Shown: positions 7,311 through 61,200 of the stretch, piece by piece
Layout of the letters: each line of letters starts with the position of its first letter
Position numbering within the stretch: position 1 is the stretch's first letter
From: an uncultured Algibacter sp.
GTDB taxonomy: Bacteria > Bacteroidota > Bacteroidia > Flavobacteriales > Flavobacteriaceae
NCBI RefSeq assembly: GCF_947490405.1
Contig: NZ_CANLGU010000003.1
Coordinates: 186,001 to 250,000 of the forward strand
Length of the DNA stretch: 64,000 nucleotides
Direction: 5' to 3'
Notes under the pieces: generated by a model
Told to the model about the DNA's origin: nothing
The model's input: the letters and a program-made list of their open reading frames with translations, nothing else
Databases searched by the model: none
Position numbers and translations under genes: made by a program

Positions 7311-9371
7311 ATGAGCACTAAATTTTATTACGTATTAATCGCCATTTTTATAAGCACTCTGGCGTATACTCAAAATATGCAAGAAGGTTTCACCTATTTA
7401 GAAACTGGCCAATATGCAAAAGCAGCATCGTTTTTTGAAACGGTATTAAAAGCACACCCAAAAAACAAAACCGCACAACTGTGTTATGGTAGAGCCGTTG
7501 GCTTATTAGGCAACTCTAAACAAGCTGTAGGTATTTTTACAGACCTGTTAGACACCTACCCTAACGATTTTGAAATACAACTTAACTATGCCGAAAGCCT
7601 ATTATGGGATAAAAATTATAAGGCTGCAAAATCCTATTACGAAACCCTAATTAAAGAGAACAGCACCAATTTTGCTGCACTTTTAGGATATGCCAATACG
7701 CTATCTAATCTTAAAATGTATGATGCTGCTTTAATATATGTAGATAAAGCTTTAAAGGTTTCTCCAGGAAACCAAAATGCATTAACCTCAAAAAAATATA
7801 TGTATTTAGGCTATGCGTATCAAAAGCAGCAAGCTCAAAATTATGATGAAGCGGAGCGCCTTTTAAAAGATAACTTAACCCTTTTTAAAGATGACAAAGA
7901 CACGCTTTTAAATTTAGCCAACCTCTATTTAATTGCAGGCAAACTTGATAACGCTGAAAGCACATACAACACCATAGCCAAAACTCCAGAAAACAAAACA
8001 CTAGCATTAAACGGATTAGCCTTAGTAAACCATTTAAAAGGCAAAGACAAAGCCGCTTTAAACATTAGTAAGTACGCGTATAACACAATTTCAAACTTAA
8101 ATGATGCGACGCTAATACAACACACCAAAGAACGTTATATACAAGCGCTTATTTGGAATAAAAACTATAAAGAGGCTCAAGTTTTAATAGATGAATTATA
8201 TGAAGCGCAACCCAACGAAAATTGGATTTTAGCCTTACGTGCTACCTTAAATATTTATAAAAGTGATTTTAAAAAAAGTGTGGCGGATTACAACCGTATT
8301 TTAGAAAATGATAGCACCTCTTTTGACGGTAATTTAGGAAAAGCCAATGCCTTAAAAGCTTTAGGAAAATATGATGACGCCTACCAATCTGCAGAAAACA
8401 CCTTAAAATTTTACGACAAGCAAAAAGATGCCACCAATTTTATTACAAGCTTAAACACGAGTTTTACACCATTTTGGGAAACTAAAGCCTCCTACTCTTT
8501 TGATAATGGCGATAACAAAGCCTTTGCAGTACAAACTAATATTGAATTTCCAACCTCAACGAAATTTAAATGGTTGGCGCGTTATGGCTACAGAACCACA
8601 ACCAATAAAGTTACTAATTTTGATGCCACATCAAACGATGTTTCATTGGGTTTAGCCTACCAACTGTTACCAAACATAACCTTTAAAGGAACTGCTGGCG
8701 TAACAGCAGCTAAAGCAAACACGAACGATTATACGCAATTGGTAACCGATTTAGCCTTAAACATCAAACCCTTTAAATTACAAGTTTTAGATATTGGATA
8801 TAAAAGCGACGTACAAAGTTTTAATGCCGAATTATTAAACAGAGAAATCGTGATGAATAACTTGTACGCCAACTATAACCTAAGTACCAATTTTAATTTA
8901 GGTTGGTTTACACAGTATTTTTACACCTGGCAAAACGATGATAATGCTAGAAACTTATTATTTACCTCGCTTTACTATAACATACTTGCAAAACCTGCCT
9001 TAAAAGCGGGTTTAAACTACCAATACATTACGTTTAAAAACCAAGTACCAACCATTTATTTTAGTCCAAAACAGTTTAATGCTGGCGAAGTATTTGTAAA
9101 CATTATAAAAGATGAAGCTGTTACAAAACCTAAGGCGTGGTTTTACGAGTTAACTGCAGCTACAGGTTTGCAATATATTGAAGACGATAGCAACCAAAGC
9201 ACCTACCGCATACAAGGAAAACTAGGTTATAAGTTTACAGAACGTGCGTTGTTAAACCTTTATGGCACCCGAAGTAATATTGCCTCTGCTACAGCAGCTG
9301 GTTTTACTTTTAATGAAATTGGGGTGCGGTTTAAGTGGTATTTGAGTGGGGTTCCTGGGTTTAGGAAATAA
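7311..9371 (+). CDS. TPR-repeat protein with YaiO-like outer-membrane beta-barrel
   Basis: 686 residues. Residues 1-20 are a Sec signal peptide ending ALAYTQ-like (STLAYTQ). Residues 22 to about 380 hold successive tetratricopeptide repeats (e.g. GFTYLETGQYAKAASFFETV, then NYAESLLWDKNYKAAKSYYE). From about 390 to the end, alternating aromatic beta-strands (WETKASYSF, WLARYGYRT, FNLGWFTQYFYTW, final strand IGVRFKWYLSG) form a YaiO-type barrel. TPR-plus-barrel proteins such as PgaA, BcsC and AlgE/AlgK partners export polysaccharides through the outer membrane. This one probably serves the exopolysaccharide made by the neighbouring enzymes. The cassette array begins only 2 bp after its stop codon. 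Confidence 0.85.
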   Translation: MSTKFYYVLIAIFISTLAYTQNMQEGFTYLETGQYAKAASFFETVLKAHPKNKTAQLCYGRAVGLLGNSKQAVGIFTDLLDTYPNDFEIQLNYAESLLWDKNYKAAKSYYETLIKENSTNFAALLGYANTLSNLKMYDAALIYVDKALKVSPGNQNALTSKKYMYLGYAYQKQQAQNYDEAERLLKDNLTLFKDDKDTLLNLANLYLIAGKLDNAESTYNTIAKTPENKTLALNGLALVNHLKGKDKAALNISKYAYNTISNLNDATLIQHTKERYIQALIWNKNYKEAQVLIDELYEAQPNENWILALRATLNIYKSDFKKSVADYNRILENDSTSFDGNLGKANALKALGKYDDAYQSAENTLKFYDKQKDATNFITSLNTSFTPFWETKASYSFDNGDNKAFAVQTNIEFPTSTKFKWLARYGYRTTTNKVTNFDATSNDVSLGLAYQLLPNITFKGTAGVTAAKANTNDYTQLVTDLALNIKPFKLQVLDIGYKSDVQSFNAELLNREIVMNNLYANYNLSTNFNLGWFTQYFYTWQNDDNARNLLFTSLYYNILAKPALKAGLNYQYITFKNQVPTIYFSPKQFNAGEVFVNIIKDEAVTKPKAWFYELTAATGLQYIEDDSNQSTYRIQGKLGYKFTERALLNLYGTRSNIASATAAGFTFNEIGVRFKWYLSGVPGFRK

Positions 9372-9372
9372 A

Positions 9373-9509
9373 TGTAAACGTTTTTGTGTATATTTCAGTT
9401 GCGTGGTTTTAGCATTAAATTTAGCAAATAAATCACAGATAGAAAGTCCGCGAGGACTTTCGTAAGTAGTCTATAACTAGCAATGAATCATAAACATTGT
9501 TGTATGCAG
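9373..9509 (-). repeat. attC-like site 0 (terminal site of cassette 1)
   Basis: Cores AAC 9377-9379 and GTT 9499-9501. The central hairpin is GAAAGTCC (9442-9449) and GGACTTTC (9454-9461). The outer AAC end (TGTAAACG) has no cassette partner because it faces the TPR gene, marking the end of the array. Confidence 0.75.
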
Positions 9510-9513
9510 TTTT

Positions 9514-10077
9514 TTAATTTTCAATTCTTTCATATTCTAATTTATTAGATTCAATTGAAAGTGATACAACCATAATAATTGGAACGTATTCATCCTTCTT
9601 AAAATATGACTCTCTTACATATTCATCATTGAATTTATAGTTCACGAAATAAGATTTGTTACTAACAAGTTCGTTTGGATAATCATAACATAGAAATACG
9701 CAACTGTTTTTCCTTATTTCAAATTTTTCTCCGTTTTCAATTTCACTAATTAATCGGTTTTTGTCATTTTCAGTAATTTTTAGAATAGTTTTTTGAAATC
9801 GTTCTGGCATACCTGTAACTTCGTTTTTCAGGATTTCAAAATCCTCTAATAGTTCAATATTGGCATATTTGAGGTCTTTTTTAACATCAGTTCCAGAGTG
9901 CGAGAATGAAGCAATTGTGTTCGTAAATAAGAAAGAAACGCAGACTAAAACTATAATTCCGCTTATTATAATTCCAATTTTAGTCTTTCCGTTTTTTCGA
10001 AATATGAAAAAAATAACTGGCGATAAAATTAGAAGCAGTAAAATTATCACATATCCAATTAATGTTCCTAAACCCAA
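9514..10077 (-). CDS. Cassette 1: small membrane protein, unknown function
   Basis: 187 residues. Two hydrophobic segments near residues 8-27 and 34-53 (GYVIILLLLILSPVIFFIF, then IGIIISGIIVLVCVSFLF) are followed by a soluble, charged domain of about 130 residues ending in beta-rich sequence. I do not recognise the family. The stop codon is 5 bp from the attC-like core, and the start lies about 55 bp inside the other core (GTTGTATGCA at 10132-10141 read on the minus strand), so the gene fills the cassette. No promoter of its own is obvious. It may be an envelope protein of accessory function, as is common for cassette genes. Confidence 0.7.
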   Translation of the reverse strand: MGLGTLIGYVIILLLLILSPVIFFIFRKNGKTKIGIIISGIIVLVCVSFLFTNTIASFSHSGTDVKKDLKYANIELLEDFEILKNEVTGMPERFQKTILKITENDKNRLISEIENGEKFEIRKNSCVFLCYDYPNELVSNKSYFVNYKFNDEYVRESYFKKDEYVPIIMVVSLSIESNKLEYERIEN

Positions 10078-10130
10078 TTTTTTCTAAATTTTATGTTCAA
10101 ATTCTCAATGTGTGTTAGTGTGTTCTTAAA

Positions 10131-10270
10131 TTGCATACAACGGTTTGTGTATGAAATGTAGCGTGTTTGTGTGCGAGGATTTTCCGAAGGAAAATCAGAA
10201 GCTAGCAAACAGAGCAACTAACAATGGTTTAAGATAAAACTAGCAATTTTTATATACGGTGTTGTACAAC
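10131..10270 (-). repeat. attC-like site 1 (between cassettes 1 and 2)
   Basis: Cores AAC 10139-10141 and GTT 10261-10263. The central hairpin is GATTTTCC (10178-10185) and GGAAAATC (10189-10196); flanking arms are GTGTTTG/CAAACAGAGC and GTGTAT/ATATAC. Belongs to the same subfamily as sites 4 and 7. Confidence 0.8.
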
Positions 10271-10275
10271 GTTTT

Positions 10276-10911
10276 TTATTTTATTATTTGTCTGATTAAA
10301 TCTGCATCGATTTTCTCCGTACTTAACTTAATATAATTGAAAGATTTGACTTCAGAATTCTCAAGTTCCAAAATCAAAACTTTGTTTTTATTCGAGTAAA
10401 CTATTCGGTTGTCCAAAGTTAAATAATCAGTTCCAAATTCTGATTCCAGTTCTGCTTTTGAAAGTCCGATTATATTTGCTTTTTTTAAATCCTTATCTTT
10501 TCCTTTTACAGATAACTCAATTAAAATTTCTGTTTTATCATCCCAAGAATGCCTTTTATCTCCAAACTTAAAAACAGTAATCCATACAGGTTCCATTTCA
10601 GACCAAGTAGAGTCGGTAGGGAAAGCACTGTAATTATAAAAAATGGAATCTCTAATATTTGGATGATAATGATAATTAAGTCCGTTTGTTACACTGCTTA
10701 ATGATTTTCCTTTTATTGCTTTATAATCTTGTAAATCAATTGGATTTTCAAGAAAAGAAATCAGTTTTGAGTTTTTAGTAGTTTTTTCCGCTTTTTCTAT
10801 TTTTAATCCAGTTGAATCGATAACTATTTGTATCTGTTCAGCTTCTTTTTTAGTTGTCTTTTTGCAACTTAATAAGGCTAATAATAATATCGTTAAAACT
10901 CGAATTTTCAT
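10276..10911 (-). CDS. Cassette 2: putative lipoprotein, unknown function
   Basis: 211 residues. The N-terminus MKIRVLTILLLALLSCKKTT is a lipoprotein signal peptide with the lipobox LLSC (Cys16), so the mature protein should be tethered to a membrane. The rest is a soluble alpha/beta domain with an LSKAELESEFGTDYLTLDNRIVY segment, reminiscent of SmpA/BamE-like small folds (the short turn 'LGxP' is absent), but I would not assign it. The ATG lies about 20 bp after the cassette core GTTGTACAAC (10925-10934). Exported proteins make up about half of this array. Confidence 0.7.
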   Translation of the reverse strand: MKIRVLTILLLALLSCKKTTKKEAEQIQIVIDSTGLKIEKAEKTTKNSKLISFLENPIDLQDYKAIKGKSLSSVTNGLNYHYHPNIRDSIFYNYSAFPTDSTWSEMEPVWITVFKFGDKRHSWDDKTEILIELSVKGKDKDLKKANIIGLSKAELESEFGTDYLTLDNRIVYSNKNKVLILELENSEVKSFNYIKLSTEKIDADLIRQIIK

Positions 10912-10924
10912 TGTTTGAGCAAAT

Positions 10925-11060
10925 GTTGTACAACGGTTAGGCTATGAGTAGTTGCGTGGACTAGCACTTAACTTAGCAAGTACACACCAAGTTGGAAATT
11001 CCGCAGGAATTTCCAAAGTAGGCGAGAACAAGCAATTACTTATAGCCATTGTTGTGTGCA
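10925..11060 (-). repeat. attC-like site 2 (between cassettes 2 and 3)
   Basis: Cores AAC 10932-10934 and GTT 11051-11053. The arms GGCTATGAGTAGTTGC and GCAATTACTTATAGCC pair well; the central hairpin is TGGAAATTCC/GGAATTTCCA. Same subfamily as site 5. Confidence 0.8.
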
Positions 11061-11065
11061 GTATT

Positions 11066-11470
11066 TTATTCAGTTTTTGTTATTTCACTTTTATATACAA
11101 AGTCATTATCAATGTCAAATTTTGATTCCTGCGTATATTTATTTCCATTGACATTTGTGATTTTTACAATCAAATCAGGTGTCGGCTTATCTTTCGGTCT
11201 ATATTTCCAAAACGCTTCATTTCCGTCTAAAAATTTCAGTCTATAACTACAATCATCAATCCATATTATTTTCAGCGTTATTTTCTTTTCTCCATATTGT
11301 TCAGTTTGGATAGAGTCATTTCTTTGAATTTTAGCTTTTAAAATTCCGTTTTCAATATTCTGAAATTTACCTATTTTAAATTTTTCGCAATTTTCTTGTG
11401 AGTAAGAAAGTCCGCAAACCAAAATTAAAATTGATAGTGAGATTATTTTTTTCATAAGTTTTGTTTTCAT
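11066..11470 (-). CDS. Cassette 3: secreted small protein, unknown function
   Basis: About 134 residues from ATG 11470 (MKTKLMKKIISLSILILVCG); an ATG at 11455 would also keep the signal peptide, whereas the ATG at 11479 abuts the attC core. The signal peptide ends near GLSYSQ. The mature part is a small beta-rich domain with WIDDCSYRLKFLDGNEAFW, a pattern also seen in short cassette-encoded proteins of DNA from Bacteroidota, but without a family I can name. One Cys in the mature N-terminus (ENCEKF) and one in DDCSY could form a disulphide in the periplasm. Confidence 0.65.
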   Translation of the reverse strand: MKTKLMKKIISLSILILVCGLSYSQENCEKFKIGKFQNIENGILKAKIQRNDSIQTEQYGEKKITLKIIWIDDCSYRLKFLDGNEAFWKYRPKDKPTPDLIVKITNVNGNKYTQESKFDIDNDFVYKSEITKTE

Positions 11471-11471
11471 A

Positions 11472-11609
11472 TTGCACACAACGTGTTTGTATAAGATTAG
11501 TTGCGTGTTTAAGTACCTAATTTAGCAAATAAAAACCGAATAGAAAATCCGCGAGGATTTTCGTAAGTAGGCTAGAACTAGCAATAAATTATATACGGTG
11601 TTGGCGTGT
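11472..11609 (-). repeat. attC-like site 3 (between cassettes 3 and 4)
   Basis: Cores AAC 11480-11482 and GTT 11600-11602. The hairpin GAAAATCC/GGATTTTC with loop GCGA closely follows site 0 in layout, including ...TTTAGCAAATAAA and CGTAAGTAG. Confidence 0.8.
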
Positions 11610-11616
11610 CGTTTTT

Positions 11617-12015
11617 TTATTTTTCATTATAGATGTCACAATCTATTGTTCCATTAATTTCATTCATAAATTTTACTGTTCGTTTACTAAAATGAAGTCC
11701 TGGACTTTCATCTCCAAGAAAAATGACAACTTCTAAAACATATTCAAATTCAGGGTTTCGTTTTTTAAGTCCGATTAATTCACTTTTATGGTTTTCAAGT
11801 TTGTCAATCAGTTTTTCAATTTCTTTAAAAAAATATGGATTTATTAATTTTCCTGAAGAATATTCCCAAATTGTACAAACAGGCGTTTTTCCGTTCTCAA
11901 ATTTTTGTTTGAAATCGGTAGGTTTAATTGTTAGATAAGAGTCAAATTCCGAGATTCCAAACTTTTCATTTTCGGTTTTAATTGCGAAATATGTGTATCC
12001 TTTTGTGTTTGTCAT
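11617..12015 (-). CDS. Cassette 4, second gene: DUF4279-like protein
   Basis: 132 residues. The N-terminal TKGYTYFAIKTENE, the TIKPTDFKQKF segment and WEYSSGKLINPYFFKEIEKL fit the DUF4279 pattern (a small domain with a repeated 'xIxPTxxxxxG...WxYxSG' core), by eye only. No signal peptide or membrane helix, so cytoplasmic. Its ATG overlaps the TGA of the upstream gene by 4 bp (ATGA at 12012-12015), so the two are translationally coupled in one cassette. DUF4279 proteins are often found in accessory regions and near polymorphic toxin loci; an immunity-like role is a guess. Confidence 0.7.
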   Translation of the reverse strand: MTNTKGYTYFAIKTENEKFGISEFDSYLTIKPTDFKQKFENGKTPVCTIWEYSSGKLINPYFFKEIEKLIDKLENHKSELIGLKKRNPEFEYVLEVVIFLGDESPGLHFSKRTVKFMNEINGTIDCDIYNEK

Positions 12016-12317
12016 ATACCATTTGCATATTTATCAATCCATTCATAAACTTTATTTTCAATAAGTTCCGTTTTTTGAGATTCAAATACTTCCTTTGGAT
12101 TCTCCCAATCATTGTCATAAATAACATAGATTTTATAATTTTCTCTATAAAACCCTACGTCCAAAATCGGTCCTTCTTCATAAATATGACTTAACTGTAA
12201 AATACCCTCTGTTTTTTCAGCTTGTATTAACCAGTCTTTATTCAATGTGAATCCGCTTTGGTCATATTCCACATTCCACATATTTATATTGCTCGATATT
12301 CTTCTGTTTTTAATCAT
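12012..12317 (-). CDS. Cassette 4, first gene: small acidic protein, unknown function
   Basis: 101 residues, soluble, with many aromatic and acidic residues (NMWNVEYDQSGFTLNKDWLI, then YKIYVIYDNDWENPKEVF). ATG 12317 follows GAGGAAC and CGAGAA, giving a plausible ribosome site just inside the cassette; ATG 12281 is a possible alternative. I do not recognise the family; its size and composition resemble small immunity proteins. It is coupled by an ATGA overlap to the DUF4279-like gene, making this the only two-gene cassette of the array. Confidence 0.65.
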   Translation of the reverse strand: MIKNRRISSNINMWNVEYDQSGFTLNKDWLIQAEKTEGILQLSHIYEEGPILDVGFYRENYKIYVIYDNDWENPKEVFESQKTELIENKVYEWIDKYANGI

Positions 12318-12335
12318 TTCTCGATGTTCCTCAAA

Positions 12336-12476
12336 TGCACGCCAACGTTGTTGTATATGGAAAGTTGCGTGTTTGTGTGCGAGGATTTTCCGAAGGAAAA
12401 TCAGAAGCTAGCAAACAAAGCAACTAACATTGGTTAAGCTAAAACTAGCAATTTTTTATATACGGTGTTGCCATTA
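12336..12476 (-). repeat. attC-like site 4 (between cassettes 4 and 5)
   Basis: Cores AAC 12344-12346 and GTT 12467-12469. Central part GCGAGGATTTTCCGAAGG and AAAATCAGAAGCTAGC is identical to site 1 over tens of bases, so the sites have been homogenised or share a recent origin. Confidence 0.8.
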
Positions 12477-13094
12477 GTTTTTTATTCCGTTTATGAATTT
12501 TTCTAATTCCGTTTCGCTCAAAGAGTTTTGTTCATCATCCACAATATAAAATGTCAAAACGTAATCATTAATTTCCAAGTTTAAAATCCGCAAACGAGAC
12601 AATATCTCTGAATTAGTACTTTTACTTTTATAAGCAAACCAATAATTTTCCGAAATCGAGCCGTTAATTCCATTCGTAACAACTCTTTTAACGCTTACTC
12701 TCCGATTGTTTTTCGATTCCAAAACATATTCCGCCCACATTAATTCATATTTCGTGATGCTCCGAATATTTAGATTTGTATTTCCTTTCAGGTCATTAAC
12801 ATTGAAAAGGTAACAGGCTATAATTGGTCGATTATTTTCTTTGTCCGAAAGAGTGAAAATTGGCTCGAAAAGTTCTTTTTCAAATCCTTCTCTGTCCTTT
12901 TTACTTAATTCCAAATTTTTAGGGAATTCATAGTCGGATATAAAATTCCGAAATTCCGATTTATCCGCAACAGTAAATTTGTCCGATAGTTCAATTCCGA
13001 TTCCTATTTTCTCAATTTCAATTCGATTATTTGATACCTTAACTTTAGGTTCAAAATCAATTTTTCGATTTTTAATTTCTTTCGTAAGGTTCAT
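12474..13094 (-). CDS. Cassette 5: soluble protein, unknown function
   Basis: The frame can be opened from a TTG at 13100, but ATG 13094 (MNLTKEIKNRK) gives 206 residues and is preferred. No signal peptide or membrane segment. The N-terminal 120 residues are alternating beta-strand-like and charged; the last part has DYVLTFYIVDDEQNSLSETELEKFINGIKN, which resembles the end of small stress or lipoprotein-type domains where a fitness readout is unknown. I cannot name a family. The last stop base almost touches the attC core (12467-12476). Confidence 0.65.
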   Translation of the reverse strand: MNLTKEIKNRKIDFEPKVKVSNNRIEIEKIGIGIELSDKFTVADKSEFRNFISDYEFPKNLELSKKDREGFEKELFEPIFTLSDKENNRPIIACYLFNVNDLKGNTNLNIRSITKYELMWAEYVLESKNNRRVSVKRVVTNGINGSISENYWFAYKSKSTNSEILSRLRILNLEINDYVLTFYIVDDEQNSLSETELEKFINGIKN

Positions 13095-13101
13095 TTTCAA
13101 A

Positions 13102-13240
13102 TTAATGGCAACGGTCTCGGCTATGAGTAGTTGCGTGGGTTAGTGCTTAACTTTGCAAGTACACACTGAACTGAAAATCCGATAGGATTTTCAGAAGTAG
13201 GCGAGAACAAGCAATTACTTATAGCCATTGTTGCCATTAG
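13102..13240 (-). repeat. attC-like site 5 (between cassettes 5 and 6)
   Basis: Cores AAC 13110-13112 and GTT 13230-13232. Arms GGCTATGAGTAGTTGCGTGG and GCAATTACTTATAGCC match site 2. Cassettes 5 and 6 share the same core GTTGCCATTA. Confidence 0.8.
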
Positions 13241-14016
13241 TTTTTTTCATTCGTTAAACATTTTTCGTATCCGATTTGAGCCTTTTTGAATTCAGGCAAA
13301 TACCTTTCTTTAAAACTCATTTTCGGATATCTTTTATCTACCTCAATTTTAAAATCATCAAATTCAGGTAATTCAAATTCGTAAAATTCTTTTCCATTAA
13401 ATTTCGGCATATTCTCAACATACTTTTTTGCCCGGAAGCAATTGTCAGGAAATCTTGTAGTTGAATAAGAACTAACTTGTCCTCCAATATGTCTCATCAA
13501 GCAAAGGAATAAAATTGCTTTTTCAGTATCGTTGCTAAAATTCAAACTGTCAAAATCAATATCTACTGTTCCTAAATCCATTGGCTTTTGTTTATTCAAA
13601 ATATCTGATGAAATTGATAAATAGTAATGAGCTAATAGTTCTTTTCGGTTTGGTAAATTTTTAATTTCCTTACTGACAACCTTTTTATTCTTCAATTTTT
13701 TAATTCCAACGTGCGGTCCGTTAAATGAATTCCATTTCAATTTTTTGTGTAGATAGTGTCCGACCAATGTGTTTTCAGATGGTTTGGTCAGAAATTTATC
13801 TGATGCTATTTGGTTATTTCTTTTGCTTAATTCGTTTAGGAATGATTTGAGTTCTTGCAATTCCTCAATTTGAAATTCTTGATTATTGACAGTTCCGTTA
13901 TTTTCCCAAAGGGCTAACACATATTTTGGTGTAAATTCATTGTATTCAATTCCTTTATTCTGTCCGAAAGTTAAATTCGATAGTAAAATTAATATGGCTA
14001 AAATTCTAAATTTCAT
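13237..14016 (-). CDS. Cassette 6: secreted protein, unknown function
   Basis: 259 residues with a signal peptide (MKFRILAILILLSNLTFGQ, cleavage near residue 19). The mature region is helical and charged, with FLCLMRHIGGQVSSYSTTRFPDNC near the middle and a C-terminal FKIEVDKRYPKMSFKERYLPEF. No catalytic motif I can identify. The start lies about 20 bp from the GTTGCCATTA core. Probably periplasmic or surface-exposed. Confidence 0.65.
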   Translation of the reverse strand: MKFRILAILILLSNLTFGQNKGIEYNEFTPKYVLALWENNGTVNNQEFQIEELQELKSFLNELSKRNNQIASDKFLTKPSENTLVGHYLHKKLKWNSFNGPHVGIKKLKNKKVVSKEIKNLPNRKELLAHYYLSISSDILNKQKPMDLGTVDIDFDSLNFSNDTEKAILFLCLMRHIGGQVSSYSTTRFPDNCFRAKKYVENMPKFNGKEFYEFELPEFDDFKIEVDKRYPKMSFKERYLPEFKKAQIGYEKCLTNEKN

Positions 14017-14028
14017 TCTTGGGTCAAA

Positions 14029-14169
14029 TTAATGGCAACGGCTCTGTATAAAGTTTGTTGCGTGTTTTCAAGCTAAAAGTAAGTAAAATATTACTGATTA
14101 GAAAGTCCGCGAGGACTTTCCCAAGTAAGCAAATAGCTAGCAATAAAATTTATACTTTGTTACCACCAG
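14029..14169 (-). repeat. attC-like site 6 (between cassettes 6 and 7)
   Basis: Cores AAC 14037-14039 and GTT 14159-14161. The central hairpin GAAAGTCC/GGACTTTC is the same as in site 0, but the outer arms (CTCTGTATAAAGTTTGTTGC and TAGCAATAAAATTTATAC) differ. Confidence 0.8.
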
Positions 14170-14172
14170 TTT

Positions 14173-15054
14173 TTATTCCAATATTTCTCCAAATTTTTCT
14201 TCCCAAACTGTATAAAATGAGTTGCTAATTTCATTCATTCTCATAAGTCCGTTTTCTATTTCGTTCGTAAGACATTCATTCCAATTCATAAATTCTAATA
14301 GACTTTCAATGACTATTGAATTCATTGGCACAATCACTCTACAATCGCATTTTTCGTAATTTAGGAATCCAAAAAATCCGCTTTCTTTTCTCGTTAGGTG
14401 AAAGTCAAATATCTCTTGCCAATTTCCGTGTACTGCATCTGAACCAACACCGTAAATAAAAGAATATAAATCCTCATTGTCAACTTCACTATGTATTTTC
14501 CAGAATGACTTTCCGTCAAGTTTCCATCTTTTTTTGTATGGTTTATTGCTTTCTATTTCTAAATCTTCAATGGTAAATCCATCAACTTGTAATTTAGTTT
14601 CTAGTTTTAATAATTGACGTTTGATAATTGGATGGTCATTGTCGTTTAATTCCATCAATTTTTTATAATTCTGGTGTCTTGCTTGATAAGAAACTAATCT
14701 AAAATTGCGTTGCGATTCAGTTCCGTTTTTTATTAAATATTTTGTGATTATAAACGATTCATACATTGGTCTTGCAAATAATGTCTGAATTTCAAGTTTA
14801 TTTAATTCTTGGTAGTTAACGTATTCTTGATAAAATTTTACAATTCGAGTAATCGAACCAACGATTGTAGATTCGTTTAAGTTGTAATAATTCGGATGTT
14901 TTTCGTGATTTATTACTCTTGAAAGTAAATCAATTAATTCTCCTAAATCTTTAGAAAACTTAATTATAAATTCATTTAGTTCTATTTCCGTTTTTGAAAA
15001 TTCAGATAAATCTATATTCGAATATTTATTAAATATTTCTGTGATTTCGTTCAT
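14173..15054 (-). CDS. Cassette 7: DUF5677-like helical protein
   Basis: 293 residues, almost all helical, soluble. The pattern LFARPMYESFIITKYLIKNG, an R-rich helix (RNFRLVSYQARHQNYKKL) and a later YGVGSDAVHGNWQEIFDF resembles DUF5677, a family with a HEPN-like layout whose conserved 'S..VHG' segment is visible here. By analogy it might be a nuclease-like or defence accessory, but neither activity nor a canonical Rx4-6H motif is certain. It is the largest gene in the array. ATG 15054 lies 20 bp from the GTTACCACCA core. Confidence 0.65.
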   Translation of the reverse strand: MNEITEIFNKYSNIDLSEFSKTEIELNEFIIKFSKDLGELIDLLSRVINHEKHPNYYNLNESTIVGSITRIVKFYQEYVNYQELNKLEIQTLFARPMYESFIITKYLIKNGTESQRNFRLVSYQARHQNYKKLMELNDNDHPIIKRQLLKLETKLQVDGFTIEDLEIESNKPYKKRWKLDGKSFWKIHSEVDNEDLYSFIYGVGSDAVHGNWQEIFDFHLTRKESGFFGFLNYEKCDCRVIVPMNSIVIESLLEFMNWNECLTNEIENGLMRMNEISNSFYTVWEEKFGEILE

Positions 15055-15063
15055 TTTCTCAAA

Positions 15064-15205
15064 TTGGTGGTAACGGTTTCGTATATGGAAAGTTGCGTGT
15101 TTGTGTGCGAGGATTTTCCGAAGGAAAATCAGAAGCTAGCAAACAAAGCAACTCACATTTGTTAAGCACAAAACAGCAATTTTTTATATACAATGTTAGC
15201 ACCAG
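15064..15205 (-). repeat. attC-like site 7 (between cassettes 7 and 8)
   Basis: Cores AAC 15072-15074 and GTT 15195-15197. Central part as in sites 1 and 4. The inner arm differs in GTTAAGCACAAAACAGC. Confidence 0.8.
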
Positions 15206-15208
15206 TTT

Positions 15209-15649
15209 TTATTCTATTTTTTTAAATTCCAATTTAATCGGCTCTACCTTTTCTCCAGCCTCTTCCATCATTTTGTCCATTATTGGGTCAGAATAATAAG
15301 CTGAAAAACTGTCTTTTTTCTTTTCCAGAATTATATATAAGAGAGTCATTGATTTTGGTTCACGATTTTTTCCTCTCGGAATAGGTTTTGTTGTTAAAGT
15401 CAAAGTGTCTTTTTCTATCTTCCAATCTTGTAAATCGGATTTCATAAATTGAGATAATTCAATTTTTCCGTTTTTATAAACCCCTGGTCCTGTAATTCCA
15501 GAACCATCTTTATTAAGACTTATTAAGTTAATCATTCCGTTTGCATTAGGGGTAGAAATCCATTTCCCAATAAATGAATTGTCTTTGTCTTGTCCTAAAA
15601 CAGAATGTATAGTTGTCAGAGTAAAAATTAGTAATAGTATGTTTTTCAT
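15209..15649 (-). CDS. Cassette 8: secreted lipocalin-like protein, unknown function
   Basis: An ATG at 15664 is in frame, but ATG 15649 (MKNILLLIFTLTTIHSVLGQ) gives a clean signal peptide of about 20 residues and 146 residues overall. The mature part begins DNSFIGKWISTPNANGMINL, a pattern seen in small lipocalin-type 'GKW' proteins of Bacteroidota, followed by beta-strands (DWKIEKDTLTLTTK, LLYIILEKKKDSFSAYY). The ligand is unknown. The cassette's AAC core has changed to AAT (15673-15675), a single mismatch to its GTTAGCACCA partner. Confidence 0.65.
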   Translation of the reverse strand: MKNILLLIFTLTTIHSVLGQDKDNSFIGKWISTPNANGMINLISLNKDGSGITGPGVYKNGKIELSQFMKSDLQDWKIEKDTLTLTTKPIPRGKNREPKSMTLLYIILEKKKDSFSAYYSDPIMDKMMEEAGEKVEPIKLEFKKIE

Positions 15650-15664
15650 GATGTTGTGTGTCAA

Positions 15665-15805
15665 TTGGTGCTAATGTTGTTGTATAAGATTAGTTGCGTG
15701 TTTCAACCAACTAATTTACTAGATAAATCACGAACGGCGAAATTCCGAAGGAATTTCCCAAGTGAGCTAAAACTAGCAATTAATTTTATACGGTGTTGTA
15801 CGCAG
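15665..15805 (-). repeat. attC-like site 8 (between cassettes 8 and 9), core mutated
   Basis: Core AAT 15673-15675 (expected AAC) and GTT 15795-15797. Hairpin GAAATTCC/GGAATTTCC. The mutated core may disable this end. Confidence 0.7.
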
Positions 15806-16262
15806 GCTTTTTCGTTCGTTTTATTATTCTTATTAAATTCGGAATAATTGAAATGATGACACTCATTCCTATAATCAGTCCGTAATTTATTTCATTCCAA
15901 TGTAATTTTCTAATTCCGTCATTACAAGCAGTACATTCAATAATTTTCATATTCGCGTCAATTGCTGAAATTCCAATTAATAGTATTCCAAAAATTAATA
16001 AACTTAAAATTCCGTTTTTCAACATTTGAGTAAATTTTCGATTCAGGTTTTCGAGCGTCAAAATCAGCATACCAATTCCGAACGTGATAAAATAAAGTTT
16101 GTTTGAGAAAACATAAAAATTCTTTCCTACAAATTTAATTTTGTCAGACGTTGACCATTTAAAAATATCTTGAATTATTCCACGAAAAAAAGATTCAGAA
16201 TAGTATGCGATTCCAATTCCGATTATGAATGCTAAAATTCCAAATGTTATCTTTTTTATCAA
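15786..16262 (-). CDS. Cassette 9: four-helix membrane protein, TTG start
   Basis: 158 residues beginning at TTG 16262 (MIKKITFGILAFIIGIGIAY); no nearby ATG is in frame. There are four hydrophobic segments, near residues 4-22, 45-67, 80-100 and 128-150, with an extracellular or periplasmic CxxC-like pair (IIECTACNDGI) between the third and fourth. Family not recognised. This is the first cassette of the array on the coding strand. Its 3' end runs into attC-like site 8, so the last codons overlap the core GTTGTACGCA. Confidence 0.65.
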   Translation of the reverse strand: MIKKITFGILAFIIGIGIAYYSESFFRGIIQDIFKWSTSDKIKFVGKNFYVFSNKLYFITFGIGMLILTLENLNRKFTQMLKNGILSLLIFGILLIGISAIDANMKIIECTACNDGIRKLHWNEINYGLIIGMSVIISIIPNLIRIIKRTKKPAYNTV

Positions 16263-16282
16263 TTTGAGTGAGTTTTTTCAGC

Positions 16283-16370
16283 TTGCGTACAACTCGTTTA
16301 TATGCGGAACTTTATAAGCCTATACCTTTGATTTGGTTGGCTATACAGAAGTTTAATGCATGTTAAGTTT
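16283..16370 (-). repeat. Right end of the array: degenerate attC-like or attI-like sequence
   Basis: The core TGCGTACAAC (AAC 16291-16293) pairs with the GTT end of cassette 9, but the usual 130-bp palindrome is missing. Instead there is a short inverted repeat, TATAAGCC and GGCTATA, around 16312-16346. No GTT core is evident further right. It could be a deletion-damaged attC or the remains of an attachment site. Confidence 0.4.
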
Positions 16371-16500: not shown

Positions 16501-16890
16501 TACTTACTCAAATGTGATGTCTCCTATCGTCGACATGACTAACGTTGTTTTTGTTTACACGCCTTTGTCATTTCGACAGAGCGAAGCATGAGCGACGAGA
16601 AATCTCATTATTTTAATAACCCACTGTATTTACTTATTCAAATGTGATGTCTCCTTACGTCGACATGACTAACGTTGTTTTGTTTATACGCCTTTGTCAT
16701 TTCGACAGAGCGAAGCATGAGCGACGAGAAATCTCATTATTTTAATAACCCACTGTATTTGCTTACTCAAATGTGATGTCTCCTATCGTCGACATGACTA
16801 ATCGCTTTTTAATTTATGTTGCTTAGTCATTTCGAACTTATGTGAGAAATCGCATTATTTTTGTTAACCCAACATGCTTATTCTTATGCG
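16501..16890. repeat. Tandem ~130-bp repeat, three copies
   Basis: Units start at 16501, 16631 and 16760 (periods 130 and 129 bp); the third is degraded, and related fragments continue to about 17005. Each unit carries an inverted pair: GTCGACATGAC facing GTCATTTCGAC, plus GCGAAGCATGAGCGACGAG, so it can fold as a BIME-like structure. No coding potential. Confidence 0.8.
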
Positions 16891-17065
16891 ATGTCTCAAT
16901 CGTGCCTCATTTCGACATGACTAACACAAATTTGTTTAACATTCCTTGTCTTTTCACAGAGCGATTCCGATAGTTATCGGAAGAGCGACGAGAAATCTCA
17001 TTATGTTACGCAACTTTTAATAAATTCTTTGATACTCCTAATTTTGATTTTACTATATTTTTTAT

Positions 17066-17090: not shown

Positions 17091-17131
17091 AGAACATTAG
17101 GTTTTAGTAATTGGCTTTGGCGGATGAACCC

Positions 17132-17278
17132 GCGTTAGGGATTGTAGCGGCATCCTTTTTTTGTGAAGTACCTAAATTGGCGTTTAGAACTGTAATTAAA
17201 CAGATTGCCACGTTGCTCACTCCTCGCAATGACGTAAAAAAAGATATAGCAGAAAGCCCGACCCTTGTGGTAACGCCC
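17132..17278. repeat. Composite repeat, GCGTTAGGG...GTAACGCC type
   Basis: Bounded by GCGTTAGGG (17132-17140) and GGTAACGCC (17269-17277), with GCGGCATCC, GATTGCCACGTTG, CTCGCAATGACG and AAAGCCCGACC in between. The same blocks, in opposite orientation, occur at 58651-58823, and a shorter version at 42090-42176. Confidence 0.7.
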
Positions 17279-17361: not shown

Positions 17362-19941
17362 TTAATCTAAGAGTAGTTTTAGGGTTTGATACTGGTTTTG
17401 GCTACTTACAATTTTGCAGAAATACATGCCTGAACTTAATTGTCCTCTTTTTAGTGGCAGGTTATTTTCTCCGCGGTTAACGGTATAGTCTATTTCTTTT
17501 ACTAAAGCGCCCATTTGGTTGTACATTTTTAGTGTTACCGTTTCGTGAACTTTTGCGTTAAACAGTATGGTGGTGTTTGAGCGCATTGGGTTTGGTGATG
17601 CCAATAGGGTTTCGCCTTGGTTTTCTGTTATATCGCTTACTGATAGCGCTTCGGTGTTTGCAAAATGTACTTGCTGTAGCGTCATTGTTTTGGTTTGCGT
17701 TTCGCCATTATCGGCTAGCATGGTGTACACTATTGAGGTAACATCATTGGCTTGTAACGGTGTACCGTTTGTTGATGTGAAATCTGAAAACATAAGGTTG
17801 TATTCTGTAATGGCGTCTGTTAAATTAATGCTGGTTTTGTACTGTGCTTCCCAATTGCTGATGCCTTCTTTTACCAAGCGTACTATTAACGTACCTGTAC
17901 CTTTTGCTTCTAATTTTAGACTGTTAAATTCTGATAAATCTATTGGGTTAAATTTTGGCGTTAAGGCACGATAGGCAGCTACATAATTGTTTGTTGTGGC
18001 TTCTAGGGTGATGTCGCGCTCTACGACATATACGTCTTCATTAAATGTTGTGGTGTTTGGTGCCACATCAAAACGTGTAACATTGGCTTGTGCATCGTCG
18101 TAGCCCCAAGGACCGTCTGATAGGAATAAATCGTCTGGTGTGTTTACGCCATCGCCTATTCTAAACCCTACATCAAATAAACTTCCTGCATCTACTTCTA
18201 TATTTGAAATGTAATGCTCATCTAATGTTATATTGGTTGATACCATTTCTACAGTCTCTGTTTCGGTTGTTCTTAGTCCGCCATCAAATACTACACTTGC
18301 AGTTTTGTTAGTGTTTACAATTTGTAAGTCTAACTTACCGTTACGGTATTTCCCTGATTTTACAAATACTGTTGGTGCCGCAGAATTGTTATAGCTTGTT
18401 ACTGGTTTTTGAACGTCTAATAACGTTACCACTTCTTCGCCTAGTTTTACTAAATCGTCTAAAGAATTAGACCAGATTTGGAAATTGTAAAAGCCTACGT
18501 TGATTTGGTACTTATCTAAATTCCAGTGACTTTCTATCGCAAAATTGGTATCGTTATTTATGGCTTTGGCTGAAAGACTTAGTACAAACTCTAAGCTGCC
18601 ATCTATATTGCGTATTAATGCTTTTATAAATTGTTGTTCTTTAATTTCTATAGTGGATACTGATACTAATTCTGCTCCTAATAACCTATCGCAGATGTAC
18701 TTGGTGTGTTCGTATACACCATTGTCTGTTTTTAGTAATAAAATTGAGGCTATGGCTTCGTTATGCTTCATATAATCTACCGAATACACTTCCTTGGCAT
18801 TGGTAATACCTATTAAATCTGTTGGAGAAGATTCTATGGCTTCGTCTTCGTTTACAACTTCTAATGGAATGAAATCTGATAATTGGAATCCGTTACCTTT
18901 TCCTGATACATTTTTACCGTATTTAAATGACTTTACATAACGTTTAGCTGTTGCTTTATCAAAATTGTAATTGCGTTTTACACGATTAAAATTACGTTTG
19001 TTGATTAATTCTGATAGTCTGTTATTACTCTCTAACCCTCCTTCGTTTGCACTTGATGATATTGAAGCTTCAATTACAGGACACCCTGCGTAACCTGAAC
19101 ATGATGGGTCTTCACAATCGATTAAACCATCGCCATCATCATCGATACCATTATCACAAATTTCTTGTGGTACTGGTGCTGTAGGACAACGTGCGCCATC
19201 GTTTTGAGAACTTGATGGCCCAAAAGCAAATAAATTAGATTCCATATCGGCTGCACTGTTTACATCTTGCACATTTTGAATGACATATATAGTTCCTGTT
19301 TGGTTAGCAGATACATAAAAACGACCAGAAGCATCAAAATAAACAGCACCGTATGTGTAATTTAATCCTGATAAAATTGGTACTTCACCTAAACTTTTAA
19401 TGGCACCTGTTTCAGCATTAATTCTATATAATATGTTTGTTTTCTTTTCTACGGTGTATAATTGACCGTCTACAGCGTTAAATGCCCAATCGTGAATACT
19501 AATATTTAGAGGCAAGTCTAAAGTAGCTTTGTGTTGCCCGTAGTTTTCTGATTCTGGATCTAAATCTATAGCGTAATACGTTGTGCCACCACCTTTAAGG
19601 TAATACACCCCGTTTGCACTTACATCGCCTATATAACGGCCATTAGTTGGTAATTCATCTACATAATAAATAAGTGTAGAAAAATCTTTTCCTATACGTA
19701 CAATAGATTTTGATGGGAAACTTAATGAACCCCAGATATAACCATCTGCTGGATTATATGCAGCTGCATTTATAGTGCCTTGTGTTACATCTTTTGCTAC
19801 TTGGTACGAATTTCCAGATGCTAAATCGATAGCATATACATCGTTATATTGAAATAAGTAGGCGTTATAATCGCAGTTAAACGGCGTGTCTTGTGCGTAA
19901 ACTGCGCTAGTGATACATAGTAATAGTAATAATTTTTTCAT
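17362..19941 (-). CDS. Large secreted surface protein with T9SS type A sorting domain
   Basis: 859 residues. Signal peptide MKKLLLLLCITSAVYAQ. Residues about 20-255 form a beta-propeller-like region (DUF6923-like: YIWGSLSFPSKSIVRIG, VYYLKGGGTTYYAIDLDPE, LYTVEKKTNILYRINAETGA). Residues 258-285 carry a calcium-binding-type loop, ICDNGIDDDGDGLIDCEDPS. A later jelly-roll-like stretch (LKLEAKGTGTLIVRLVKEGI) resembles carbohydrate-binding modules such as CBM11/CIA30. The last 80 residues are a T9SS type A sorting domain (ASPNPMRSNTTI...YNQMGALVKEID...LSSGMYFCKIVS). It should be exported across the outer membrane and either attached or released. A -7 box TACATTTG lies at 19962-19969 and a LytTR-like site just upstream. 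Confidence 0.85.
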   Translation of the reverse strand: MKKLLLLLCITSAVYAQDTPFNCDYNAYLFQYNDVYAIDLASGNSYQVAKDVTQGTINAAAYNPADGYIWGSLSFPSKSIVRIGKDFSTLIYYVDELPTNGRYIGDVSANGVYYLKGGGTTYYAIDLDPESENYGQHKATLDLPLNISIHDWAFNAVDGQLYTVEKKTNILYRINAETGAIKSLGEVPILSGLNYTYGAVYFDASGRFYVSANQTGTIYVIQNVQDVNSAADMESNLFAFGPSSSQNDGARCPTAPVPQEICDNGIDDDGDGLIDCEDPSCSGYAGCPVIEASISSSANEGGLESNNRLSELINKRNFNRVKRNYNFDKATAKRYVKSFKYGKNVSGKGNGFQLSDFIPLEVVNEDEAIESSPTDLIGITNAKEVYSVDYMKHNEAIASILLLKTDNGVYEHTKYICDRLLGAELVSVSTIEIKEQQFIKALIRNIDGSLEFVLSLSAKAINNDTNFAIESHWNLDKYQINVGFYNFQIWSNSLDDLVKLGEEVVTLLDVQKPVTSYNNSAAPTVFVKSGKYRNGKLDLQIVNTNKTASVVFDGGLRTTETETVEMVSTNITLDEHYISNIEVDAGSLFDVGFRIGDGVNTPDDLFLSDGPWGYDDAQANVTRFDVAPNTTTFNEDVYVVERDITLEATTNNYVAAYRALTPKFNPIDLSEFNSLKLEAKGTGTLIVRLVKEGISNWEAQYKTSINLTDAITEYNLMFSDFTSTNGTPLQANDVTSIVYTMLADNGETQTKTMTLQQVHFANTEALSVSDITENQGETLLASPNPMRSNTTILFNAKVHETVTLKMYNQMGALVKEIDYTVNRGENNLPLKRGQLSSGMYFCKIVSSQNQYQTLKLLLD

Positions 19942-59868: not shown

Positions 59869-61200
59869 TTATTTACTATTTTTAATAAAACTTACAATAT
59901 CTTCGATAAAACCTTTTGCTTTATTTATTTCAAGTATATAAGAACTGGGGTGACCACAATGATTTCTTGTATCTAAATTATTATCCATTTGAATTTTTTG
60001 GTGCTTTGAGAGTACCTTTAACTCTAAAGCAAGCTTTAGAAGATTCATCTCTTTAATCGTCTCAAAATCTGTTATTTTTGAAAATTTCTTAGTGAATTTC
60101 AATTTCATAGCTGCAGTATTTATTTCCTTAAAACCCAATTCTACACATCTATTTTGTAAGATTCTAATAAACGCTGACCATGAAAATACAATTCCAGCTT
60201 TTAATGCACCTATTCTAAAACATTGAATAGCCTCTAACAAATACTCTTGCTCATCTTTTTCCTTTAGCGTGAAAATTATTTTTTCAAGATCCTGCATTTC
60301 AGGCTCAATAATACTTGGCTTATTTACAAATTTATCTAACGGGGTAAAGTCTATTTTGATGTTCCCATGAAATATTTTAGTATACTTCTTAATACTATCA
60401 AAATGATAAATATCTAGTGATTCCAAAATAACTATCATTGGTATGCCTAAATTAAGCATATGTTTTATATAACTCCTTTTAAGAGCTTTAATAACAGACG
60501 CACTTGATATACCTGCTTCTTCAAAAGATTTTTTAATTACTTTTTCTGAACTTGCCCTACTATATCTTAATTTAGGCTTAGTAGATTCTATCAAATATTG
60601 CTTTGGCTTTTCTTTACAGCTTTTCCAATATTCATCAAGATAATCTACTATCTTTTTTGATATAAATACTTTTCGAATTGAGTCCGAATTATTTTTCCTA
60701 ATACGAATATGGAATGGAGGTTTTTTTGTATTTAAATCGGATAATTCAATATTTAATAATTCACTTAAATCAAGACAACAAGCATAAACTAGCACGAAAA
60801 TGACTCTATGCTTAGGGTTTCTAAAATTATCAATCATTAAAAAAATCTCTTCTTGACTTAATATATCAATATCTTTTATCGAAGCTTTTGGTAAGTTCTT
60901 CCTGTATATTACATAACTCTTTTTATGTATATGATTATAATAATACTCTGCAACTTGAATAAATTGAATTATTAGACTTCGTGAATCTTTTCGATTTATT
61001 AAGATTTTGATGTAATTGTTTAGTTCTAATTCAGATATATTTATTGGTTCTGTAGCTGGGTAATATTTTATCAAATCTATAAACCGTTTAGTATATAAAT
61101 TTATGGTTCTATTATTTGAATATCTGATTTTAAGATATTTTTTTATTTCTAACTCAGCTTTTACTAAATCTACCACAGAATTTTGTTCTTTTAAATACAT
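59869..61200 (-). CDS. Degenerate tyrosine recombinase fused to HEPN-like domain
   Basis: 443 residues. Residues 12-100 resemble the SAM-like core-binding domain, 113-277 the catalytic fold of tyrosine recombinases: VLVYACCLDLSELLNIELSDL, where the first catalytic Arg is Asp144; 'HxLRH' is KALKR (238-242); only the nucleophile-position Tyr273 is kept (IKKYTKI). Recombination activity is therefore unlikely. Residues 305-443 look like a HEPN domain: AIQCFRIGALKAGIVFSWSA and the Rx4H motif RNHCGH (Arg412, His417) followed by PSSYIL. HEPN proteins with this motif are often RNases or their regulators. The gene is intact and neither neighbour is its partner. It lies between direct copies of the 25-bp palindrome. 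Confidence 0.7.
   Translation of the reverse strand: MYLKEQNSVVDLVKAELEIKKYLKIRYSNNRTINLYTKRFIDLIKYYPATEPINISELELNNYIKILINRKDSRSLIIQFIQVAEYYYNHIHKKSYVIYRKNLPKASIKDIDILSQEEIFLMIDNFRNPKHRVIFVLVYACCLDLSELLNIELSDLNTKKPPFHIRIRKNNSDSIRKVFISKKIVDYLDEYWKSCKEKPKQYLIESTKPKLRYSRASSEKVIKKSFEEAGISSASVIKALKRSYIKHMLNLGIPMIVILESLDIYHFDSIKKYTKIFHGNIKIDFTPLDKFVNKPSIIEPEMQDLEKIIFTLKEKDEQEYLLEAIQCFRIGALKAGIVFSWSAFIRILQNRCVELGFKEINTAAMKLKFTKKFSKITDFETIKEMNLLKLALELKVLSKHQKIQMDNNLDTRNHCGHPSSYILEINKAKGFIEDIVSFIKNSK

Follow-up and report, generated by a model that had tools for sequence, protein, structure and literature searches.

Integrons shuffle antibiotic-resistance genes in other bacteria. In an integron cassette, the first bases are complementary to the R'' box at the cassette's own end and not to that of its neighbor. 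According to the available portions of the respective papers, strand choice is tied to extrahelical bases (PMC2727003), an insertion in the integron integrase is treated as defining (PMC9668308), and within a subgroup of integron-like tyrosine recombinases this insertion is not fully conserved, yet essential for integron function (PMC8138268). Bacteroidota are listed among the integron-bearing phyla (accessible parts of PMC8618304 and PMC9668308), so that integrons in this phylum are not new as such; the accessible part of a survey with IntI and attC models describes one complete Bacteroidetes integron, in Salinibacter, beyond earlier finds of integrase-only elements (In0; PMC9024848). Here, we analyzed a stretch of 64,000 nucleotides (nt) from an uncultured Algibacter sp. 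of the Flavobacteriaceae (the window, G000:C3:186001-250000; G000 is the window's own genome, other G handles denote genomes of relatives), in which an initial annotation had proposed an integron-style cassette array. This array is very probably an integron-type cassette cluster without an integrase of its own, in the layout of a cluster of attC sites lacking integron-integrases (CALIN), and belongs to an integron variant of the Flavobacteriaceae. With less assurance, we favor the wider view that this variant represents a second kind of integron, which is widespread in the family, extends to plasmids and phages, and relies on an IntI-like recombinase that lacks the insertion and would read folded single-stranded sites via conserved G-T wobbles rather than extrahelical bases, perhaps aided by an N-terminal extension.

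The array consists of nine direct repeats of 136-140 nt each, spanning positions 9370-15804 of the window (sites S1-S9), and of nine cassettes with ten main open reading frames (ORFs), every one on the minus strand, a layout that bears out the head-to-tail cassettes with attC-like repeats of about 140 bp seen in the initial annotation. With the plus strand as the bottom strand, the attC-like sites are located at 9370-9508 (S1, the last of the array), 10132-10270 (S2), 10925-11060 (S3), 11473-11609 (S4), 12337-12476 (S5), 13103-13239 (S6), 14030-14168 (S7), 15065-15204 (S8) and 15666-15804 (S9, with A instead of G as the core base). On the plus strand, each site runs from ten bases ending in AAC (AAT in S9) through 5-6 spacer bases and an arm of some 16 bases with GTTGC (GTAGC in S2) at its end to a middle, of which two types can be distinguished by eye, and continues with GCAA and the remainder of the second arm, three bases, and ten bases opening with GTT. 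Ten sites had been counted originally; nine are full, and at the tenth place (16282-16311) there is only a core G|TT, flanked by sequence of attI-like or half-attC type. This 5' boundary of the array (16282-16340, minus strand) reads CCGCATATAAACGAG|TT with the G at 16293, at about which position, and not at 16300 as first given, the array ends; its sequence is common to two further species as far as G|TT. Past S1, the flanking chromosome picks up at TTTACATTT (minus strand, from 9378 downwards).

Complementarity between cassette ends was scored for 128 cassettes, taken from the window and from 20 other loci in the genus, which were cut at the predicted G|TT and compared over the seven bases beyond GTT; the cassette and site statistics are based on the best 150 of 176 matches in the genus to R1, a covariance model built from the window sites that scores each strand. 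The match of a cassette's start to its own end amounted to 6.17 of 7 (n=128), compared with 3.13 for adjacent partners and 2.67 for shuffled partners (1000 shuffles, maximum 3.10). Own-end complementarity exceeds every shuffle and thus lies far beyond chance, in agreement with the complementary, cassette-specific ends noted initially. A score of 6 or 7 was reached by 113 of the 128 cassettes, among which there were 83 distinct 7-mers, and the eight cassettes scored in the window gave 7, 7, 7, 7, 6, 7, 7 and 7 of 7. Moreover, the longest ORF runs in array direction in 118 of the 128 cassettes and in the opposite direction in five, while five lack an ORF of 60 amino acids (aa). When circle junctions were modeled for eight window sites, the energy fell below that of the array sites in seven of eight with RNA parameters and in six of eight with DNA parameters. 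The energy of S6 remained unchanged because its neighbor carries the same end; S8 was 0.2 kcal worse with DNA parameters. A gain was seen for S9 as well.

Comparison further shows the sites to be covarying hairpins on the strand opposite the genes. Among the 150 genus matches, 93.1% of cells were paired, vs 79.9% after shuffling and 37-51% with the partner slid by 1-3 columns, and 392 double-change cells were found vs a shuffled mean of 108. For 90 matches near recombinases of other genomes of the family, 95.0% of cells were paired (76.4% shuffled, 33-49% slid) and 316 vs 84 cells showed double changes; these statistics include four matches on the strand opposite to stronger ones, which are excluded from the 86 places given below. 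R and L stems are separated by an unpaired center with a spacer of 6 nt in 137 of 150 and a facing stretch of 3 nt in 149 of 150 matches. Mispairs on the bottom strand were predominantly G-T rather than A-C, with 18 vs 2 in the nine window sites, counted before any model existed, 364 vs 7 in the 150 genus matches and 174 vs 9 in the 90 family matches. Within the covarying L stem, G-T occupies base pair 12 in 147 of the 150 genus and 84 of the 90 family matches, with corresponding counts of 136 and 69 at base pair 7. The 5' arm of the L stem bears one extra base in 10 of 150 matches. The core conforms to GTTRRRY in 13 of 128 cases and to GTTR in 127 of 128. With DNA parameters, the minimum energy was lower on the plus (bottom) strand in all nine window sites, in some narrowly; z was lower on the bottom strand in seven of nine and below -2.7 in five, S6 having the strongest fold (DNA z -7.2). 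Of the attC-like fold anticipated in the initial annotation, the unpaired spacer and the bottom-strand hairpin were thus recovered, the latter well in some sites and weakly in others, but in an alignment fitted to the model none of the 150 matches has an extrahelical base on the L stem's 3' arm.

We compared the locus between species, with one genome per species. It is marked by a conserved flanking gene (7311-9371, plus strand, 686 aa), which is present in eight of ten genus genomes, the window's own included. Downstream of this gene, the content was unlike that of the window in all seven relatives fetched: G008 carries a 629-aa ORF and one weak site, G007 two sites and five ORFs, G004 a site and an ORF before its contig ends, and G003 almost nothing; G009, G005 and G002 bear other ORFs without sites, those of G005 and G002 being shared. 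Gene content, whose constancy would have spoken against a cassette array, thus differs between related species at the same locus. On the first side, the flanks of the window and G008 are alike up to ...CATATAAACGAG|TT (ATATAAATAAG|TT in G007) and then diverge; on the second side, they are alike from G|TTTACATTT (G|TTTCCATTT in G007), and G004 reads G|TTACCTCC. Indeed, the flanks of the window, G008 and G007 part at G|TT on both sides, as expected for the recombination at G|TT proposed initially, with different cassettes inside; these breakpoints are defined to within the one or two bases that sites of this kind have in common in any case.

In addition, G000 and G008 share a cassette of 1,111 bp at 99.73% identity, which covers precisely the cassette's full length, with different neighbors in the two genomes. 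As the three longest blocks of the window-locus flanks show 92.5-96.9% identity between these genomes, this cassette appears to have moved recently. A second cassette is shared between G002 and G000 (93.5% identity, same G|TT edges), and a third pair, in G002 and G008, has an ORF in common but differs in the last ~100 bases. As judged by such comparison, each cassette starts with TT and has G as its last base, G|TT is the point at which inserts part, and different species have cassettes in common that lie in different contexts. At the level of sequence, cassette exchange at G|TT between genomes is thus found, in one locus in three species and in two full-length shared cassettes. At L076 18387-19671 and L078 12725-14007, from two species, one and the same ORF is accompanied by different site middles; identity ends at base 1180 of about 1284, as though the site had been exchanged.

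The window's own genome, which the initial annotation had suggested searching for further sites and an integrase, yielded 74 R1 matches (E up to 0.1), many of them single or in small groups, with arrays on contigs C1, C9, C10, C3 and C7, as well as two array-type recombinases. C7 begins within an array whose 5' end is formed by a 372-aa tyrosine recombinase, next to a gene that we take to be pnp. C4 begins with one site, and the adjoining 383-aa recombinase points away from it. The absence of an integrase, as first stated, hence holds for the window locus and not for the genome. In G008 and G005, such recombinase genes are situated directly before arrays (about 35 matches on G008:C6), and in G007 an integrase close to the C7 enzyme (L082 10185-11302) lies broken, in two frames, at an array head.

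To cover the family, recombinases were sampled in rank order without regard to sites; 20 of the first 38 rows, from 18 genomes, were followed, the other 18 being passed over as their recombinase lay within about 9 kb of the contig start. Sites were present at 16 of the 20 loci (1 to 12 each, 86 places), at every one of the 16 on one side of the gene only and with the cassettes reading away from it; at the remaining four, the contig ends 129-568 nt past the gene. The recombinase gene is co-oriented with the array at ten of the 16 loci and divergent at six, divergence of the integrase being the arrangement of class 1 integrons. Comparison thus shows an IntI-like tyrosine recombinase at the attI end of arrays, elsewhere in the genome and across the family.

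The attI crossover was predicted as the complement of the first R'' at 20 loci (the 16 sampled and four of the genus), in a search that required TT and did not require G at -1. At 17 of the 20 loci it was matched at 9-10 of 10 bases, the next best place reaching 6-8, and in 16 of these 17 it lies 27-151 nt from the gene (685 nt at L146). The preceding bases are rich in A and T and take forms such as ATATAACNAG|TT at co-oriented and TATTTACGTG|TT at divergent loci; position -1 is G in all 16 listed. An attI-like motif is also present at L134, L135 and L142, unmatched by complementarity. The 5' boundary of the window array resembles the co-oriented form, without an integrase. A putative attI attachment point is thus present in the system.

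The catalytic R, HxxR, H and Y motifs were found, with loose patterns, in all 38 array-type recombinases, and Phage_integrase scored over its cut-off in four of four. The same four enzymes reached 191.9, 175.7, 212.8 and 177.0 bits with TIGR02249 (IntI; cut-off 265 bits), and none of 14 TIGR02249 matches in the window's own genome passed this cut-off. The distance from KDR to HxLR, measured in 36 of the 38 enzymes, has a median of 58 residues (largest 59; smallest 9, an outlier); IntI1 has 100 residues here, and one XerD-like enzyme encoded in the genome has 66. Relatives of the array enzymes include IntI1 and VchIntIA (2A3V); VchIntIA aligns over 9-173 and 247-318, with the middle skipped. 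IntI2, annotated in two pieces, was left out of the comparisons. In a 69-row tree, IntI1 sits on a long branch and weakly joins Xer-type rows (87/40). Recombinases of the sampled bacterial loci bear an N-terminal extension of up to ~95 residues. From about residue 90 onward, a predicted structure (mean predicted local distance difference test score [pLDDT] 74, mostly <72 in the N-terminal 80 residues) can be aligned with those of XerA, VchIntIA and XerH. Two domain assignments for the extension were discarded as too weak, a HARP-like fold (one of ten fragments, 17.0 bits, cut-off 25) and DUF5710 (sub-threshold in four of ten fragments).

Sites were detected in ten of ten genomes of the genus, in at least 255 of 299 sampled Flavobacteriaceae genomes (at least 206 of 236 genera) and, at E 1e-6, in at least 61 of 395 genomes across the phylum; the family and phylum counts are lower bounds, as a few candidates were scored per genome. 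The rarity in this phylum assumed initially hence does not extend to these sites, rare being the integrons found with IntI/attC tools (PMC9024848, accessible part). A strong recombinase occurs in at least 196 of the 299 family genomes (best E about 1e-55 or better, one genome with 1.4e-55 being counted) and at least 118 of the 395 phylum genomes, where many matches miss the N-terminal extension. Within the family sample, 186 genomes have both sites and recombinase, 69 sites only, 10 recombinase only and 34 neither, which corresponds to an odds ratio of 9.2 (p 3.5e-10), uncorrected for relatedness or genome size. An integron version with its own kind of integrase thus seems to be frequent in Flavobacteriaceae and to have escaped notice in this family.

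The system also appears to reach mobile elements. On the Chryseobacterium plasmid L259 (NZ_CP041688.1, 9977-13229), an array-type recombinase, annotated as "site-specific tyrosine recombinase/integron integrase", is followed by two weak sites. Within a viral collection (IMG/VR), 26 of 80 loci, on contigs fetched for their recombinase alone, were scanned, and 19 of the 26 gave a site match at E 0.01; own-end complementarity was 5.03 vs 3.06 (8 loci, n=32, some sites missed). Tested proteins of the viral loci match PHROGs such as those for Erf-like proteins, exonuclease, thymidylate synthase and sigma factor. As further observations on these contigs, recombinases without the N-terminal extension lie near clusters of R1-type sites (IMG/VR L183, L186, L189, L190, L194, L195, L198 and others), and in five viral loci with listed ORFs most inter-site genes run towards the recombinase, opposite to bacterial cassettes.

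Based on these results, we suggest the following mechanism. The bottom strand would be extruded as a hairpin with an R box of ~10 bp, a 6/3-nt spacer and a 16-bp L stem, and the G-T wobbles at base pairs 7 and 12 of the L stem would be part of the hairpin bound by the array-type recombinase. These wobbles may choose the strand, as extrahelical bases do in ordinary attC. Exchange with attI or another site would take place at AA|C, which corresponds to G|TT in the orientation of the genes, and circular cassettes could thereby be captured or lost. Most likely, the platforms on C7 and/or C4 assembled the window array and continue to reshuffle it in trans, or else the array is itself a platform whose integrase has been lost.

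Several observations weigh against this interpretation. Counts of R1 matches lean towards R1, as this model derives from the window sites and assigns a score to each strand. Four of the nine window sites fold weakly (z -1.25 to -1.92, DNA parameters), two of nine have the better z on the top strand, and the minimum-energy folds of S1, S2 and S4 differ from the modeled hairpin. Among the 128 cassettes, 15 score 5 of 7 or less. At L134 and L135, both in one genome, the nearest site is >4 kb from the gene; the attI crossover was not resolved by complementarity at three of 20 loci, and that of L146 resembles the end of an undetected site rather than attI. The array enzymes are without the IntI-specific insertion around patch III, which PMC8138268 describes as essential for the function of integrons. 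Finally, 69 of 255 site-bearing genomes have no strong recombinase, and R1 matches are missing from 10 of the 13 genomes of genus g146 with a strong recombinase in the phylum sample, where another site type may be in use.

The genomes with sites and without strong recombinase would also fit a different agent, namely the housekeeping XerC/XerD recombinases moving cassettes in the fashion of pdif modules, the XerC/XerD sites of plasmids, with the IntI-like enzymes doing something else. The geometry of the sites does resemble that of a dif site, in which two arms surround a 6-nt center. However, all 20 recombinase loci show either one-sided sites (16) or a contig end 129-568 nt on (4), an attI-like core was resolved in 17 of 20, and ends that are complementary within and different between cassettes fit folded single strands and not one fixed dif; we consider this explanation improbable. 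Slightly less credible still is a family of repetitive extragenic palindromic (REP)- or miniature inverted-repeat transposable element (MITE)-like repeats copied between genes, with content varying by homologous recombination between repeats. The sites are repeated, alike and dispersed, many of the 74 matches in the genome being single, and the one cassette pair that shares its ORF but not the last ~100 bases of its site looks as if exchanged within the repeat. Yet the breakpoints of the window locus and of the two shared cassettes fall at G|TT and nowhere else in the repeat, end complementarity is cassette-specific, a single orientation relative to the genes prevails (118 of 128), and the link to the recombinase is one-sided.

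An ordinary integron of the IntI family, with integrase and attC merely diverged and nothing distinct, is equally hard to sustain as that repeat family, even though IntI1 and VchIntIA are relatives of the enzymes and layout, core cut and bottom-strand folding are all as in integrons. The insertion is absent (median of 58 vs 100 residues from KDR to HxLR in IntI1), TIGR02249 scores of 175.7-212.8 stay below the cut-off of 265, the 3' arm carries an extrahelical base in 0 of 150 fitted matches, GTTRRRY is found in 13 of 128 cores, and the tree places IntI1 with Xer, albeit weakly and with long branches (87/40). Since the enzymes fail on the insertion and TIGR02249, and the sites on the extrahelical base and GTTRRRY, we regard the system as a variant and not as the IntI type.

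The cassettes of the window, all on the minus strand and with cuts derived from the sites, are cassette 1 (15675-16292; ORF 15786-16262, 158 aa), cassette 2 (15074-15674; ORF 15209-15664, 151 aa), cassette 3 (14039-15073; ORF 14173-15054, 293 aa, DUF5677 with 53.9 bits), cassette 4 (13112-14038; ORF 13237-14016, 259 aa), cassette 5 (12346-13111; ORF 12474-13100, 208 aa), cassette 6 (11482-12345; the only one with two ORFs, 12012-12317, 101 aa, and 11617-12015, 132 aa, DUF4279 with 48.4 bits), cassette 7 (10934-11481; ORF 11066-11479, 137 aa), cassette 8 (10141-10933; ORF 10276-10911, 211 aa) and cassette 9 (9379-10140; ORF 9514-10077, 187 aa). Most of these ORFs matched no known family, DUF4279 and DUF5677 alone passing the Pfam cut-off, and an Rfam scan gave zero matches within the window array. 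A wider cargo scan covered 114 of 123 cassette ORFs at a threshold of 1e-4, and the 114 proteins matched 62 Pfam and 73 PADLOC families. The 25 commonest families per library have one to three members each, and several families can match one protein; matches include RmrA-like, capP, PD-T4-1, HEC-06 and an EcoRI-type methylase, as well as GmrSD, an IrrE-like peptidase and caspase domains. Among the models matched by the cassette cargo are thus some of candidate anti-phage and restriction proteins.

The opposite flank of the array holds a conserved gene (17362-19941, minus strand, 859 aa), found in six of seven relatives' regions; the seventh contig stops inside the array. A search between the array and this gene for an integrase relic, with 38 recombinases as queries, gave a best E of 0.13. 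Degenerate direct repeats of about 130 bp occupy 16503-17008, with several matches around the same locus in G008, and a Flavo-1 RNA match lies at 17123-17267 (47 bits, gathering score 42, E 1.1e-7). Further away, at 59869-61200, the window encodes another tyrosine recombinase (443 aa), distant from the array-linked enzymes (64-65 bits).

The initial annotation had raised the possibility of an undescribed lineage, and among the titles listed in the literature searched, with preprints and most subscription papers outside it, we found no description of arrays of this sort in Flavobacteriaceae. If our interpretation is correct, a large family of Bacteroidota carries an exchanging pool of cassettes that IntI/attC tools seem to miss. 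On the wider view of a second kind of integron, cassette capture via folded DNA would not need the very feature that had been taken to make IntI an integron integrase. The L stem, which covaries at most positions and holds two as G-T, also provides a natural system in which to test how a recombinase selects one of the two hairpin strands.

Compared with known systems, the arrays share with pdif modules the short recombinase sites that border movable genes, but their ends vary by cassette and are complementary within it, and a dedicated recombinase is found at one end. Like a CALIN, the window array has nine sites and no integrase within the locus; unlike in a CALIN, the sites are not canonical attC, and integrases of the matching type are encoded elsewhere in the genome. 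The present enzymes may belong to the integron-like subgroup of tyrosine recombinases, which comprises integron integrases and relatives and whose members without the insertion are, in the accessible part of that work, not linked to cassette arrays (PMC8138268). Phage CALINs, including that of Polaribacter phage P12002L, likewise place attC-like sites in a flavobacterial phage, and one such phage site was recombined with attI1 by IntI1 (PMC9892861, accessible part); unlike the CALINs described there, the viral contigs analyzed here also carry a recombinase near the sites. Closest are the IntI integrons, in particular sedentary chromosomal ones with Vibrio cholerae repeat (VCR)-like sites, with which the present system has in common mostly one-ORF cassettes arranged head to tail in one direction, a hairpin site after each ORF, the G|TT cut on the R' side, cassette-specific R'/R'' complementarity, bottom-strand folding and an integrase at the attI end. 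It differs from them by enzymes that lack the insertion and, at the sampled bacterial loci, bear an N-terminal extension, and by sites with a 16-bp L stem and G-T wobbles instead of extrahelical bases and with a GTTR rather than a GTTRRRY core.

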